Positions 31,012-59,448 of a stretch of DNA of 64,000 nucleotides are shown here, piece by piece; positions within the stretch are counted from its first letter, which is position 1; every line of letters starts with the position of its first letter. The notes beneath the pieces are model-generated. The model saw nothing but the letters and a program-made list of their open reading frames with translations, made no database searches and was not told where the DNA came from. Source of the stretch: Anaerofustis stercorihominis DSM 17244 (GTDB lineage: Bacteria > Bacillota > Clostridia > Eubacteriales > Anaerofustaceae). Both the position numbers and the translations under genes were made by a program. Where the stretch lies: assembly GCF_000154825.1 (NCBI RefSeq), contig NZ_DS560019.1, forward strand, positions 248,001 through 312,000, written 5' to 3'.

Positions 31012-31034
31012 AAAAAACGCTAAAAGCGTTTTTT
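31012..31034 (-). terminator. Intrinsic terminator of the nik-lar operon
   Basis: The stem AACGCT/AGCGTT (31016-31021/31025-31030) has A- and T-runs on both sides and overlaps the larC stop codon region. Confidence 0.8.
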
Positions 31035-32649
31035 ATTTTATATCTCTTATTGAAATATCATATTTATTCGATATATCTTTTAAATCATCAAATTCAAGCT
31101 TACTTTTTTTTATACCATATCCACTGCCGACTTTTTTCTTAACATTCCCATACTCAGTTTCTTCTTCGCTAAAACTCCTGTTTAATATATATCTGTCATA
31201 TTCGCTTTTTCTAACTCCGAAGGTAGAAGTATATTTCATGATAACATTCAATAAAATTTTCTCATCTTTTTCTTTTAAAAGGACTTCGAGTATCACTCCC
31301 GGACGGTTTTTCTTCATATTTACGGGAATAGTATAAACATCAAGAGCGCCGCTACTCCACAATTTATCAATGGCAAGCCCGATTTCCTCTCCCGTCATAT
31401 CATCAATATTACATGAAAGCTTGATTATTTTATCTTGCAGTTTACATTCATTATTTATTTCACCTAAAAATACCCTTACAAAATTAGCAGATTTCAGCTC
31501 TTTTTTACCTAAACCATAGCCTACTCTTTTATATGTCATATTTCTTGTGTTTGTAAATTCATTAGAAAAATGTTTTAAAATAGCAGCTCCCGTCGGTGTT
31601 GTTAGTTCACCTTCTTCTTCGTTCGTATAAGTAGGAACATCTCTTAATATATAAGCCGTTGCCGGGGCAGGAACGGGAAGTATACCATGAGCGGTCCTTA
31701 CATTTCCGTATCCGACATTTAAAGGAGAACAAATAATATTATCTATATCTAATTTTTCAATCAAATAACACACTCCAACGATATCAACTATAGCATCTAA
31801 ATTTCCAACTTCGTGAAAATGAACCTTATCAACACTGCATCCATGAGCTTTTGCTTCCGCTTCAAGAATTAGGCTATATACTTCTTTGGCATGATACTTA
31901 ACATTTTCACTTACATTCAACTTATCGATTATATGATTGATATGTTTGATATCATTATGACTATGTCTATGATGATGCCCATGTTCATGTATAGGTTCAT
32001 GAGGATGATGAGAATGCTCATGATTATGTTCATGACCGCATTTATTCTCATGATGAGTATGTTCGTGTAAAGAGTTCTGCCCCTTAAGATAATCATCAAA
32101 TCCTACCTCAAATGCATAGAGACCGTCTGCAGGAAATGAAATATCCTCTTTTTCATCAGCTCTTTCATGAATATGATGATGTTCATGGTCTATGGATTTA
32201 CTTCTGTCATTTAAAAAATCACTGTAGCTTTCTTCAAAAGCATATAAACTATCAGCAGAGAAAACAGGCTCGTCTATTTTTTTACTTATATCTTCCTTGA
32301 TATCGATTTTATTTTCGCTCCTGCTGTTTAAGTAATCATGATATCCGCCTTCAAAAGCATAAAAACTGTCTAACATTAAATTATCATCTCGATTGTTATG
32401 TTCATGATGTCCTTTTTTATTATCTGCTACATCAAGGCTTTCTTCCTCTACTCCATTAACGGTTACGATTATTTTCTTACCTGATATACCGTTTCGCTTT
32501 TCTTCTCTAAAGCTTACATTTACATTTTCAAGACCAAGATTATTCATCATCTGTAAAAAATCTTCTTTATCTTCATATAAATCCAAAAGTGCAGCCATTA
32601 ACATATCGCCTGCCGCACCGCTGTTACATTCTATATATAAACTATTCAT
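31033..32649 (-). CDS. larC: Nickel-pincer cofactor cyclometallase LarC, with repeat-containing insert
   Basis: 538 aa in one open frame; some lactobacilli need a frameshift to make LarC. Conserved LarC blocks are LYIECNSGAAGDML at the N-terminus, KVHFHEVGNLDAIVDIVG near 275, and GELTTPTGAAIL. LarC inserts Ni into the pincer nucleotide made by LarB and LarE. An insert at about 80-235 is unusual: it contains three copies of an S/GLYAFExxYxDYL motif (95-111, 134-150, 176-192) and a His-rich tract (HEHNHEHSHHPHEP and onward), probably metal-binding. The protein is about 100 aa longer than usual. It overlaps larB by 8 bp and ends the operon. Confidence 0.92.
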   Translation of the reverse strand: MNSLYIECNSGAAGDMLMAALLDLYEDKEDFLQMMNNLGLENVNVSFREEKRNGISGKKIIVTVNGVEEESLDVADNKKGHHEHNNRDDNLMLDSFYAFEGGYHDYLNSRSENKIDIKEDISKKIDEPVFSADSLYAFEESYSDFLNDRSKSIDHEHHHIHERADEKEDISFPADGLYAFEVGFDDYLKGQNSLHEHTHHENKCGHEHNHEHSHHPHEPIHEHGHHHRHSHNDIKHINHIIDKLNVSENVKYHAKEVYSLILEAEAKAHGCSVDKVHFHEVGNLDAIVDIVGVCYLIEKLDIDNIICSPLNVGYGNVRTAHGILPVPAPATAYILRDVPTYTNEEEGELTTPTGAAILKHFSNEFTNTRNMTYKRVGYGLGKKELKSANFVRVFLGEINNECKLQDKIIKLSCNIDDMTGEEIGLAIDKLWSSGALDVYTIPVNMKKNRPGVILEVLLKEKDEKILLNVIMKYTSTFGVRKSEYDRYILNRSFSEEETEYGNVKKKVGSGYGIKKSKLEFDDLKDISNKYDISIRDIK

Positions 32650-33406
32650 TAATACCCTCCATTTTGTTTATCATATTCGCAAGATATCCGGCACCGAAAC
32701 CATTATCTATATTTACTACGCTGACGCCGCTTGCACAGGAATTAAGCATGGAAAGGAGAGCAGAAAGTCCGCCGAAATTAGCACCGTACCCCACACTTGT
32801 AGGAACGGCGATAACAGGACAGTCAACAAGTCCTCCGACAACGCTGGCTAAAGCACCTTCCATTCCCGCAACCACGATTATTACTCGTGCTGACATCAAG
32901 ACATCTAAATTATCCAATAATCTGTGAAGCCCGGCAACCCCCACATCATATAGCCTTTCGACATTGCTTCCGAGTGTACTGGCAGTTATATAAGCTTCTT
33001 CGCATATATCGATATCACTCGTACCTGCAGCGGCAATAACGATTTTCCCCACTTTATCGATATCCTTATTTTTATAAGCTATACCCATTTTAGCTTTATC
33101 ATAGTAAACAATATCTATACTATCCTTCAATTTTTTATACTTATTTTCATCAATTCTTGTTATAAGTATATTTTCACTGCCATTCTCTCTCATGCTGTTT
33201 ACAATACCAAGGATTTGTTCCGCTGTCTTTTTTTCTCCGTAAATAACTTCCGATACCCCTTGTCTTATAGAGCGATGGTTATCGATTTTTGCATATCCTA
33301 TATCACTGAAAGGTTCCATTTTAAGTTTAACCACAGCATCATCGATTGAGATTTCATTATCTTTAACTTTTTTTAGTATATCTTTTAATCCTTCTTTACC
33401 CTTCAT
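32642..33406 (-). CDS. larB: Pyridinium biscarboxylic acid mononucleotide synthase LarB
   Basis: 254-aa protein whose C-terminal half is PurE/AIR-carboxylase-like (IVIAAAGTSDIDICEEAYIT, VAGMEGALASVVGGLVDCPV, AVPTSVGYGANFGG). LarB carboxylates and hydrolyses nicotinic acid adenine dinucleotide to the biscarboxylated mononucleotide, the first step of the nickel-pincer cofactor. Its NaAD substrate is the same deamido-NAD made by the NAD pathway in this genome. It overlaps larC by 8 bp and lies 6 bp after larE. Length and motifs are normal. Confidence 0.94.
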   Translation of the reverse strand: MKGKEGLKDILKKVKDNEISIDDAVVKLKMEPFSDIGYAKIDNHRSIRQGVSEVIYGEKKTAEQILGIVNSMRENGSENILITRIDENKYKKLKDSIDIVYYDKAKMGIAYKNKDIDKVGKIVIAAAGTSDIDICEEAYITASTLGSNVERLYDVGVAGLHRLLDNLDVLMSARVIIVVAGMEGALASVVGGLVDCPVIAVPTSVGYGANFGGLSALLSMLNSCASGVSVVNIDNGFGAGYLANMINKMEGINE

Positions 33407-33412
33407 ATCACT

Positions 33413-34159
33413 CTACCTTCTTGGTCTTAAATCAAAACTTATTTCATCAAACATATGAGATATCGTTTTAAGTATCCTGTCTCTGTTTTCCATAACTTTT
33501 ATAAAATCTTTTTCTTTAACTTGAATTACCGCACTATTATCTTTTACTCTTATCCTAAAATCCTTGAAACCCAGTTTAAATAAATAAGACTCGCTTTTTT
33601 CTATCTTGACAAGAGTATCTTTTTTTATTTTCTGTCCGGTGCTTATCCTCGTTGCAAGACATGAATAAGAAGGCTTGTCCCATGTAGGAAGCCCGGCTTC
33701 TTTTGACAGAGTCCTTATATCTTGTTTTGTAAGAGAACATATTTTTAGAGGGGATAAAATTTTCATTTCTTTCAGCGCCTTCATTCCAGGACGATCACCT
33801 TCGTCATCCGTAGCATTGGTACCGTCTATTATAATATTATATCCATCCTGCTTAGCCGTTTTTATAATATGAGAAAAAATATTCTGTTTACAATAATAAC
33901 ACCTGCTGCTATCATTAGTTATAATTTTTTCTTCATTTAAAATAGGATTATCGATTATTTTTAAATCTGCACCGAGTTTAGTTGCAAGAGTGATACTCTC
34001 TTTTAATTCAAAGTCAGGCTGAAACTCACTCTTTACAAAATAAGCTGTTGATTCAATATTTAATTTTTTTAATATGTATAACAAATAAGAGGAATCAACT
34101 CCTCCGGAAAAAGCCAAAGCTACTTTCTTATAATACTTAAAAAATTCTTCAAGGGTCAT
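33413..34159 (-). CDS. larE: Sacrificial sulfur insertase LarE
   Basis: 248-aa PP-loop ATPase. The SGGVDSS loop is at residues 18-24. Cys167 in KPSYSCLATR aligns with the sacrificial cysteine that is converted to dehydroalanine in Lactobacillus LarE. Two more cysteines in SRCYYCK (87 and 90) could instead fit the Fe-S cluster form, which uses three cysteines; Cys87, Cys90 and Cys167 would supply them. It thiolates the two carboxylates of the LarB product. It overlaps nikO by 4 bp and is 6 bp before larB. Confidence 0.92.
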   Translation of the reverse strand: MTLEEFFKYYKKVALAFSGGVDSSYLLYILKKLNIESTAYFVKSEFQPDFELKESITLATKLGADLKIIDNPILNEEKIITNDSSRCYYCKQNIFSHIIKTAKQDGYNIIIDGTNATDDEGDRPGMKALKEMKILSPLKICSLTKQDIRTLSKEAGLPTWDKPSYSCLATRISTGQKIKKDTLVKIEKSESYLFKLGFKDFRIRVKDNSAVIQVKEKDFIKVMENRDRILKTISHMFDEISFDLRPRR

Positions 34160-34848
34160 AATCCTGCCTCCACAAGAAATTCTTCATTATTTAATACATC
34201 CATATTTCCATTATAATATATACTTCCATTTTTTAAAATAACAACCTTTGTACAAGTTTCTTTTATTAGGTCAAAGTCATGAGAAGCAATAAGTTTAGTG
34301 GAATCAATAGAATTTATTATTTCAATCAACTTTCTTTTTGACTTTTTATCCAAATAAGAAGTAGGCTCATCAAATAATATGATTTTCGGATTTTGAACCA
34401 ATATCGAAGCAATACAAGCGCTTCTTTTTTCTCCTCCGGAAAGCTTATAAACAGCCTTATCTTTTAAATGATAAATACCGAGTTTATTCAATATATCATA
34501 AACGATATTTTCAACTTCTTCTTTGTTCATATTCAAATTATTTAACGCAAAAGCAACATCTTCGTACACAGTAGATGAAAACAGCTGATCATCCGGATTT
34601 TGAAATATAAGCCCAACGTCCATTCTGATTTTATCAATGTTATTTTTATTTACTTTAATCCCATTTACGGTTATAATTCCTTCGTCTATCGGGACAACTC
34701 CAAGCATACTTAAAAATAAGGTAGATTTTCCTGCACCGTTAGCACCAAGCAAACCTATATTTTCATTGTCATTTATATCTAAATTTAAATTATTCAGTGC
34801 TTTTGTTCCGTCGGGATATTTTATATTTAAATCTTTTATATTTATCAT
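34156..34848 (-). CDS. nikO: Nickel/cobalt ECF transporter ATPase (NikO/CbiO-like)
   Basis: 230-aa ABC ATPase: Walker A GANGAGKST, Q-loop FQNPDDQLFSSTV, signature YKLSGGEKRSA, Walker B IILFDEPTS, and switch ASHDFDLIK. The QNPDDQLF segment is typical of ECF-transporter ATPases. It couples ATP hydrolysis to Ni(II) or Co(II) uptake with NikM and NikQ. It overlaps larE by 4 bp and is 10 bp after nikQ. Nickel is favoured over cobalt because the next three genes are lar. Confidence 0.9.
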   Translation of the reverse strand: MINIKDLNIKYPDGTKALNNLNLDINDNENIGLLGANGAGKSTLFLSMLGVVPIDEGIITVNGIKVNKNNIDKIRMDVGLIFQNPDDQLFSSTVYEDVAFALNNLNMNKEEVENIVYDILNKLGIYHLKDKAVYKLSGGEKRSACIASILVQNPKIILFDEPTSYLDKKSKRKLIEIINSIDSTKLIASHDFDLIKETCTKVVILKNGSIYYNGNMDVLNNEEFLVEAGL

Positions 34849-34858
34849 TTACTCTCCT

Positions 34859-35629
34859 CTAAATACAATAAAAACTTAATACTATATATATAAAAAAGAT
34901 TATAAAACTAATATAATCGCTTTTTGAATACTTATATATTTTACTGTAATTATATTCACCATTGTAACCTCGAAGCTTCATCGCATGATATACTTTATCC
35001 GCTTTGTCCATACTCCTAAGGAGTAAATTCCCGAGAAAACTCCCCATATCCTTAATATAAATCCCTTTTTTTCGGTTACTTCTTAAAATATATGCAGTAT
35101 ACATATTCCCGGCTTCATCAGCTAAAGTATGAATATATCTGAATGTAAGGTTCAACTCATTAACAATGATCTTTGGAATTTTAATATTTTCCATAAAAGC
35201 AAAAATATCATGTAATTTCGTAGTTGAAATAAGTAAAAATACCGACATTACAGTAAGATAAGATTTTAAAATAATACCTATAAAAGATATTAAGCCGAAG
35301 CTTATTGGAATATTTAATATACAACAATAAATTTTATTATTAACAAAAATATTCCCTATACCGATAAAGAAAGAAAAAGGCAGGACAAACAAATATCTTT
35401 TAAATAACAGTTTGTGATTTGTTTTACTCATTAAGAACACTAGCAATATATACAATAAAAAGAATAATAATCTTGAAATGTTATAACTCGAAGTTGAAAC
35501 TACGGATATTATAAAAATTAAAGTCATGAATATCTTGACCGAAGGAGTAAGCAAATGGAAAAAACTATTATTGTCTGCTAATCTTTCCATAAAATAAACA
35601 TCATTTAAAGACGTCCTTATATTCGCCAT
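34859..35629 (-). CDS. nikQ: Nickel/cobalt ECF transporter T component (NikQ/CbiQ-like)
   Basis: 256-aa membrane protein with about 5 helices. The two cytoplasmic coupling motifs appear as AYILRSNRK and, further on, LLLRSMDKADKVYHAMKLRG, which fit the A-R-[SG] motifs that contact the ATPase in CbiQ/EcfT. The opening FMERLADNNSFFHLLTPSVK matches CbiQ-type. It lies 26 bp after nikM and 10 bp before nikO. The metal is inferred from the operon. Confidence 0.88.
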   Translation of the reverse strand: MANIRTSLNDVYFMERLADNNSFFHLLTPSVKIFMTLIFIISVVSTSSYNISRLLFFLLYILLVFLMSKTNHKLLFKRYLFVLPFSFFIGIGNIFVNNKIYCCILNIPISFGLISFIGIILKSYLTVMSVFLLISTTKLHDIFAFMENIKIPKIIVNELNLTFRYIHTLADEAGNMYTAYILRSNRKKGIYIKDMGSFLGNLLLRSMDKADKVYHAMKLRGYNGEYNYSKIYKYSKSDYISFIIFFIYIVLSFYCI

Positions 35630-35655: not shown

Positions 35656-36663
35656 TTATGATCTTTTTAATTTACTTACCTTATATGCACTTATCCCTAT
35701 AACGCCTGCAAAAACAAATACTATTACTCCCCCGACAATTCCCGCAACAGATGTTCCGCTTATCACACTTTGGTTATCTTCGTTCTTATAGTTATAATCA
35801 GGCATAAAAGCCGTCTTTTCTTGAATATTGTTCATCGCAGTATAAACATCATGCGCCCCGTTTTCAACCTCAGTACTTCCCGTAACCCCTTGAACAGACC
35901 ATTCGAGTCCGTCCGGATTTGATGAAGCGAAGAGAGATAGCCCTCCTGCCACAATAAAAGTAATGATACTTAAAGACACAATGACCCTTTTAAAACTTAC
36001 ATTACTTTTCTTACTAAATATACTTTCATCTAAAATTTCTTTTCTTTGATTAAATATAAAGTCTGCTACGAGCATAGTTACAACACCTTCAGCAAGTCCG
36101 ATAGCTAAATGTATCGGCTGCATTAAAACTAAAAACTGGCTGAAAGGAAGTTCGCTTATCCCTGAAAAAAAGGTTTCTAGAACAACCATAAAAGCACCTA
36201 GTTGCAAGGATAATACACACCCGATCATTGAAGCAATCCCAAGACTTTTCTTGCTTACTCCCCTTTGTAATATAGGTTTAATAACATAAGGATAAATTAT
36301 TAAACAAGGAATAACCCCCATATTAAATAAATTACACCCGAGTGCAAGAAGTCCTCCGTCCGCAAAAAACAAGCACTGTATCAGTAACACCGAAAATATG
36401 GATATAAAAGCCGCAGGACCACCCAAAATCAAAGAAAGAAGTATACCTCCTCCGATATGACCGCTCGAACCTGTCATAGGTATCGTAAAATTGATCATTT
36501 GAGCCGCAAATACAAATGCACTCATAATCCCCATCAATGGAACTTTTTTTTCTAAATTTTCATCTTCTTTTATTTTCTTAACAGAATAAATAACCGCCCC
36601 CGAACTAACTGCCAACATAGCACCTCCGACAGCAGGAGACACCAAAGCATCCGCCATATGCAT
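35656..36663 (-). CDS. nikM: Nickel ECF transporter substrate component NikM with PDGLE domain (NikMN fusion)
   Basis: 335 aa from ATG 36663. The N-terminus MHMADALVSPAVGG is the conserved NikM/CbiM start, where the N-terminal amine and His2 bind the metal; this and GGGAGGAAA about 6 nt upstream fix the start, although the frame stays open further. Residues 1-215 form the CbiM-like core of about 7 helices. The C-terminal part carries SSNPDGLEWSVQGVTG and a last helix, the PDGLE/NikN domain, giving a fused NikMN. It is the first gene of nikMQO-larEBC. The leader upstream contains a terminator (see 36664-36784). Confidence 0.92.
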   Translation of the reverse strand: MHMADALVSPAVGGAMLAVSSGAVIYSVKKIKEDENLEKKVPLMGIMSAFVFAAQMINFTIPMTGSSGHIGGGILLSLILGGPAAFISIFSVLLIQCLFFADGGLLALGCNLFNMGVIPCLIIYPYVIKPILQRGVSKKSLGIASMIGCVLSLQLGAFMVVLETFFSGISELPFSQFLVLMQPIHLAIGLAEGVVTMLVADFIFNQRKEILDESIFSKKSNVSFKRVIVSLSIITFIVAGGLSLFASSNPDGLEWSVQGVTGSTEVENGAHDVYTAMNNIQEKTAFMPDYNYKNEDNQSVISGTSVAGIVGGVIVFVFAGVIGISAYKVSKLKRS

Positions 36664-36784
36664 AACTATTTCCTCCCATAAAAAAACACGAAAGAAAGAC
36701 ATTACTTCATGTAATGGATTATCCTTCGTGGAATCATTCTTAAACAATATTTTTAAGATAAAATACCTTCGTGGTATCAATTTC
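36664..36784 (-). promoter_or_regulatory. nikM 5' leader with tandem ACGAA-loop hairpins and terminator
   Basis: The predicted transcript carries, in order: ATACC-ACGAA-GGTAT (36777-36764), CTTAAA/TTTAAG (about 36758-36740), ATTCC-ACGAA-GGAT (36734-36721), CATTAC-ATGAA-GTAATG (36716-36700), then CTTTCGTG (36694-36687) directly followed by seven T and the SD GGGAGG. CACGAA of the second hairpin (36730-36725) can pair with TTCGTG (36692-36687), making an intrinsic terminator before the gene. The first hairpin has the same CCACGAAGG and could compete. I recognise no known riboswitch class. Confidence 0.6.
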
Positions 36785-36790
36785 TATAAC

Positions 36791-36819
36791 ATATTATCAC
36801 TTTTATGGAATATTTTCAA
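36791..36819 (-). promoter_or_regulatory. Sigma-A-type promoter of nikM operon
   Basis: Minus strand: -35 TTGAAA (36819-36814), 17-bp spacer, -10 TAATAT (36796-36791). The expected start is near 36784. Confidence 0.75.
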
Positions 36820-36839
36820 TATCTTAATTAAACCTAAAT

Positions 36840-36861
36840 ATTTCATTATATATAATGAAAT
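36840..36861. promoter_or_regulatory. 22-bp perfect palindrome upstream of nikM promoter, candidate operator
   Basis: ATTTCATTATA is followed at once by its exact inverse TATAATGAAAT. It lies 20 bp upstream of the -35 element. Symmetry and AT content are like Fur-family or NikR sites; the regulator is unknown. Confidence 0.6.
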
Positions 36862-36875
36862 ATTTAAACAAATAA

Positions 36876-36898
36876 AAAATCCGTACAAAACGGATTTT
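36876..36898 (-). terminator. Intrinsic terminator after the 123-aa membrane protein gene
   Basis: AAAATCCG/CGGATTTT (36876-36883/36891-36898) with T-run on the minus-strand side, 13 bp after the stop. Confidence 0.82.
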
Positions 36899-59325: not shown

Positions 59326-59343
59326 GAACTAACATATTATTTT

Positions 59344-59436
59344 GCTTACATATCATGGCATTATCCATACGAGGTTAAAGGGTCAAAATTCGTTCGCATT
59401 TTTTCTCAGCCTACGCGTAAGCTCCCCTGCTTTTTT
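59344..59436 (-). promoter_or_regulatory. TPP riboswitch aptamer
   Basis: Minus strand: GCAGGGGAGC at the 5' side, then the conserved GGCTGAGA, GACCCTTTAACCT and GGATAATGCC blocks in the right order and spacing for a THI element. It lies 76 nt upstream of the thiC ATG at its 3' edge, with a terminator between. Confidence 0.93.
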
Positions 59437-59448
59437 AATTGTAACCAA

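Follow-up and report, generated by a model that had tools for sequence, protein, structure and literature searches.

Guanidine-II riboswitches need no more than a pair of similar hairpins whose loops are conserved, together with a terminator. In the RNA targets of ANTAR proteins the hairpin loops are six nucleotides long, the first being A and the fourth G (PMC3369931), and the NiCo (czcD) riboswitch precedes efflux genes (PMC9294342). NikR is absent in more than half of the organisms with NikABCDE (PMC2667541), so that nickel uptake in the others must be under some different control. In the 64-kb stretch of DNA analysed here (the window), the leader of a nikM operon contains a row of small hairpins with GAA loops that overlaps an intrinsic terminator. 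Judging from sequence comparisons, this element and the protein DUF3842 are probably the two parts of a metal-uptake control system that has not been described before.

The nikM control region

Coordinates are positions in the window, and all control features of nikM are on the minus strand. The operon starts with nikM itself (35656..36663, ATG at 36663), encoding CbiM and PDGLE domains, and continues on the same strand with genes for a nikQ/cbiQ-type transmembrane component (34859..35629), a nikO-type ATPase (34156..34848) and a larE-type ATP pyrophosphatase (33413..34159, a name which we take from gene order and general knowledge), followed by larB (32642..33406, AIR carboxylase domain) and larC (31033..32649, nickel insertion protein). 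A previous sequence-only reading had described a palindrome, a promoter and a leader about 120 nt long, in which two CCACGAAGG hairpins have ACGAA loops and a terminator precedes the Shine-Dalgarno sequence; all of these were found. The palindrome, 5' of the promoter, is A+T-rich, a candidate operator, and longer than the 22 bp first noted (36840-36861), its perfect stretch being 32 bp (36835..36866); it is the sole perfect palindrome of at least 22 bp in the window. The promoter is of the extended -10 type (36791..36819), composed of TTGAAA (36819-36814), a spacing of 17 nt and TG-A-TAATAT, with the TAATAT at 36796-36791; its score of 9/12 is by itself no better than that of shuffled sequence. 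We infer a transcription start at about 36784. A strong hairpin terminator (36876-36898), T-rich on both flanks, separates the nik promoter from the gene upstream.

Within the leader, HP1 (36762..36778) has the sequence GATACC[ACGAA]GGTATT, the loop of which recurs on other stems in relatives. HP2 (36717..36735, with the core TCC[ACGAA]GGA at 36732-36722) is the antiterminator hairpin and overlaps the 5' arm of the terminator. One further hairpin of this type had been overlooked: HP3 (36700..36716, CATTAC[ATGAA]GTAATG), with its loop closed as C[ATGAA]G, follows the same loop rule and sits atop the terminator. The latter (36680..36730) is formed by CACGAAGGA (36730-36722) and TCTTTCGTG (36695-36687), followed by seven T (36686-36680), and uses up the second hairpin; the Shine-Dalgarno sequence GGGAGG lies at 36672..36677.

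HP2 and the terminator are mutually exclusive hairpins. The terminator conformation has a free energy of -24.5 kcal/mol, against -18.2 for the best fold with HP2 enforced, and without the 3' arm of the terminator the leader RNA folds into HP1, HP2 and HP3. The fold of the whole leader (-28.8 kcal/mol, z = -2.04) is modest on its own, but the arrangement is not mere chance because it is conserved in 20 nikM leaders of relatives. The proposal of attenuation through a leader terminator with mutually exclusive hairpins is supported, and the hairpins are indeed conserved in orthologous leaders; given this anatomy and conservation, we hold with high confidence that the element is a conserved attenuation element. 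The proposal that HP1 competes for the 3' arm of the terminator is not supported. Such pairing is possible in the window but not conserved in relatives, where HP1 keeps only the C[(A)NGAA]G loop on unrelated stems (e.g., GCCGGC[TGAA]GCCGGT) that are unable to pair with that arm; the retention of the loop on changing stems argues against competition. Leader-peptide attenuation was considered and rejected: the ATGAAG of relatives is readable as a start, but the window has ACGAAG with no Shine-Dalgarno sequence before it.

Spread, loops and target genes of the element

We searched 61 genomes, most of them from the window's order, for nikM and read its leaders. In 20 nikM leaders belonging to three families HP2 is present as C[AYGAA]G, and nearly all of them have the 3' arm CTTCRTG followed by T. 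A covariance model (R1) built from the element and searched over the order and 391 Clostridia genomes found it in 35 of the 391, spread over 14 families, with further copies across the window's order. Reverse-strand matches of R1, which are mirrors of palindromic terminators, were excluded by eye. The copy in the window scores 55 bits (E 3.9e-11), its sequence being among those on which R1 was trained, and has the features of the family, i.e., HP2 as C[AYGAA]G overlapping a terminator and a metal-uptake gene (nikM) behind it. Searches with Rfam at gathering and relaxed thresholds gave no match at the element, either in the window or at 20 other loci. As the sequence-only reading had suggested, the leader corresponds to no listed riboswitch: the NiCo, cobalamin, fluoride, yybP-ykoY and other Rfam models do not match at the element, and Rfam 15 holds no family of this type. 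One cobalamin riboswitch is present at locus L066, away from the element. Elsewhere in the window (59329-59438, minus strand) a match to the TPP riboswitch below threshold (39.2 bits, gathering score 54.3, E 3.7e-4) is possibly a divergent member of that class.

The loop of HP2 is A[CT]GAA in all 84 non-redundant elements (ATGAA in 61 and ACGAA in 23). The general loop rule, C[(A)NGAA]G, is kept throughout, whereas the stem sequences differ between elements through compensating substitutions. When HP2 was chosen by its loop alone, pairs 2-4 were formed in 100, 95 and 81% of cases, against 88, 70 and 50% with partners shuffled; for HP1, which was chosen for at least four pairs so that only pairs 5 and 6 are independent, these two were formed in 88% against 43-52%. 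Upstream hairpins closed by C-G, with GAA loops on differing stems, occur in 27 of 90 elements as compared with 0.64 in shuffles, and their loops include TGAA, AGAA, ACGAA, AAGAA, ATGAA and AGGAA. When the rule for the closing pair was relaxed, hairpins of the type (N)NGAA were found upstream in 36/84 elements (5.5 in shuffles) and within the terminator in 40/84 (1.5 in shuffles), and six control loop rules gave counts of just 1-7. Hairpin number and spacing vary between elements, about 26 of the 84 having HP2 only under the rules used, and little is conserved beyond the loops. Because the loop is conserved on changing stems, and in the strand that the terminator must unfold, it is best read as a recognition site that would be presented in the antiterminator form.

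The genes behind the elements are nikM, cbiM and nikA- or nikB-type ABC genes, as well as genes for an RcnR/CsoR-like protein, a class I methyltransferase, a folT-like ECF substrate component, an FmdE-type protein and a TroA-type ABC operon, the FmdE and TroA labels being assigned by eye from sequence. The common theme of these targets is transition-metal uptake, mainly of nickel and cobalt, even if some are left unexplained by it. They uphold the suggested link of the leader to nickel/cobalt uptake, and the element likely serves nickel/cobalt or related metal status; the folT-like ECF gene means that "nickel/cobalt" may be too narrow. The pincer cofactor, which had also been put forward, is unlikely as a general signal, as the element also precedes cbiMQO, nikABCDE and TroA-type operons without lar genes.

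Several of these loci deserve mention in their own right. The folT-like ECF component has an internal PMH(I/L)P motif, lies behind the element in several families (L083, L093, L096, L106-L112, L116, L117 and L120), adjoins uridine-kinase-like genes and DUF3842, and is possibly an uncharacterised importer of a metal or metal chelate. In genus g10 of the window's order the element stands before a class I methyltransferase gene, with RcnR-like, MATE and Ni/oligopeptide ABC genes nearby (L063-L068, L070, L074, L075, L081 and L082); this is possibly a metallophore uptake locus. At L071 (5642-5824) and L078 (5377-5629) two tandem elements precede a single ABC ATPase gene.

DUF3842 as a candidate antitermination factor

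DUF3842 (PF12953), an uncharacterised protein, is conspicuous in the neighbourhoods of the element. It is encoded in 34 of the 35 Clostridia genomes with the element and in 101 of the 356 others (Fisher 2e-16, phylogeny ignored). The sole exception is G437, where the match is short and not followed by a called gene; it may be no more than a terminator that fits by chance. Within the window's order DUF3842 is present in 32 of 33 element genomes, the remaining one being 86% complete, and among genomes with nikM the leader carries the element in 20 of 23 with DUF3842 and in none of four without it (p = 0.002, phylogeny ignored); L022 and L023 are from genomes with both DUF3842 and nikM where the element is absent. 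At a looser cut-off a match to the element was found in 11 of 40 further genomes with DUF3842 as against two of 40 without. The association is also one of position: in 14 of the 35 genomes, no more than about 3.5 kb separates DUF3842 from an element. With gene names assigned by eye from order and sequence, three loci have both in the same operon, namely element-nikABCDE-DUF3842-larC-larE-larB in Mobilitalea sibirica (L187), element-nikABCDE-DUF3842 in Heliorestis acidaminivorans (L183), and element-cbiMQO-DUF3842 (L200); DUF3842 lies directly behind the element in Desulfovirgula thermocuniculi (L242) and at L256, and divergent from it in Alkaliphilus pronyensis (L252). The genome of the window encodes DUF3842 at G000:C1:106916-107293, behind mutL-miaA and a third gene and far from nikM, a location that may fit a trans-acting factor. 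It should be noted that about 100 of the sampled Clostridia with DUF3842 have no R1 element at E 1e-3, and that DUF3842 is present also in phyla without any element seen.

The predicted fold of DUF3842 is a Rossmann-like sandwich (pLDDT 94.5). Comparison of the model with Foldseek and VIA-align returned generic Rossmann-type matches (best Z 8.8), i.e., middling ones to dehydrogenases and other nucleotide-binding enzymes, and nothing informative on function; no RNA-binding relative was found, and the model shows no evident metal site. A sequence search for solved relatives gave nothing better than E 0.4, and a search of one literature library found no paper on DUF3842 or on nikM leaders.

The exclusive hairpins, their conservation on compensating stems, the common targets and the co-occurrence and linkage of DUF3842 are features of the sequences themselves. 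We lean towards a mechanism in which GAA-loop hairpins held by DUF3842 would block the terminator in an attenuation of metal uptake. By default RNA polymerase would halt at the leader terminator. A trans-acting factor would grip the C[(A)NGAA]G hairpins, always HP2 and in addition HP1 and/or HP3; with HP2 held, its strand would be kept out of the terminator and the operon would be transcribed. The likeliest factor would be the small Rossmann-like DUF3842, to which we give a somewhat better than even chance, probably as a dimer or oligomer able to read two or three hairpins simultaneously; the form that does so would predominate when nickel or cobalt is scarce. RNA binding by DUF3842, read-through caused by this binding, and nickel/cobalt status as the signal are what we infer, the direction from binding to read-through because HP2 and the terminator exclude each other. 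That DUF3842 is the first of a new class of RNA-binding antiterminators, a Rossmann-fold nickel/cobalt sensor reading rows of C[(A)NGAA]G hairpins across Clostridia, we would put at an even chance.

Alternatively, the hairpins alone could constitute a small riboswitch, with a metal ion or small ligand between the GAA loops, and DUF3842 would act elsewhere in metal handling as a chaperone, enzyme or ligand maker. That guanidine-II manages with two similar hairpins and a terminator, and that DUF3842 resembles a nucleotide-binding enzyme fold and is co-transcribed with transporters, would agree with this, but the near lack of conservation beyond the loops leaves hardly any sequence from which a ligand pocket could be built, the hairpins vary in number and spacing, and element and DUF3842 co-occur regardless of the transporter behind; we consider it unlikely. 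Quite improbable is a leader read by another RNA-binding antiterminator, either an ANTAR protein or one of the BglG/GlpP type (BglG/LicT systems combine a RAT sequence of about 29 nt with a PRD antiterminator protein). ANTAR targets have the same layout of tandem hairpins, the second overlapping the terminator (PMC3369931), and one ANTAR protein is encoded in the window genome, but they need hexaloops with A1 and G4 where the loops here are (A)NGAA of 4-5 nt, no ANTAR protein is found in 14 of the 35 element genomes, and the ANTAR gene of the window genome adjoins glnA/glt genes whose separate leader carries GGAC[AAAGGA]GTCC; an assignment of the element to ANTAR-target RNA was rejected on the loops and the missing proteins.

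It is very improbable that the operon is controlled chiefly on the DNA, by way of the 32-bp palindrome, and that the leader has little weight. The palindrome is unique in the window, and element-free nikM genes often carry C-tract/G-tract sites, but its arms (TTTCAT...ATGAAA) are partly retained in one close relative only (L002) whereas the leader recurs throughout. The C-tract/G-tract sites, which we take to resemble RcnR/CsoR operators, are found in five of seven element-free nikM leaders (as palindromes in L022, L023, L024, L026 and L027), suggesting that RNA control has been replaced by DNA control there. Finally, a constitutive partial terminator with no dedicated regulator and repeats by chance would fit the z-score of a single leader, only -2.04, but is hardly credible given that the loop is conserved, on stems with compensating changes, across 14 families and in front of several types of gene.

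The antitermination reading would make the element and DUF3842 a concrete and widespread candidate regulator of nickel uptake in Clostridia, covering also acetogen-like relatives, in which key enzymes depend on nickel. If true, it would give a function to a domain on which no paper turned up in the library searched, contribute a family that Rfam 15 lacks, and hint at what is carried by the uncharacterised transporters of this regulon.

Comparison with known systems

The targets of the ANTAR proteins EutV, NasR and AmiR resemble the element in that a pair of small hairpins carries short conserved loops on stems of variable sequence, that the second hairpin overlaps an intrinsic terminator, and that read-through is expected once the hairpins are held. 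They differ in having hexaloops with A1 and G4 in place of the 4-5-nt (A)NGAA; the element's terminator, moreover, often contains a third hairpin, and the element goes with DUF3842 rather than ANTAR proteins and with genes of metal uptake. As a separate observation, the leader of a glutamate-synthase-like gene near the sole ANTAR gene (L032, 16700-16870 of G000:C5, minus strand), with GGAC[AAAGGA]GTCC, A1 and G4 included, and a terminator, is likely an ANTAR target.

Guanidine-II (mini-ykkC) likewise uses two hairpins whose short loops are conserved (ACGR, compared with ACGAA in the window), but differs in its loop rule and genes, and the TGAA and AGAA loops of the element misfit ACGR; its Rfam model gave no match to the window leader, either at the gathering score or when E values up to 10 were allowed. 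The guanidine-IV variant (Gd4v), also a hairpin with a terminator and sometimes before MATE genes, was rejected as it is pseudoknotted and has other genes. A proposed link to nickel and cobalt is shared with the NiCo/czcD riboswitch, but the element precedes uptake genes, is a row of plain hairpins and has no Rfam match. Repression of the RcnR/CsoR or NikR type controls the same kinds of operons, but through DNA operators, and the element and the C-tract/G-tract DNA sites may replace one another. Set beside these systems, the element is a novel form of tandem-hairpin antitermination, possibly with a new class of protein.
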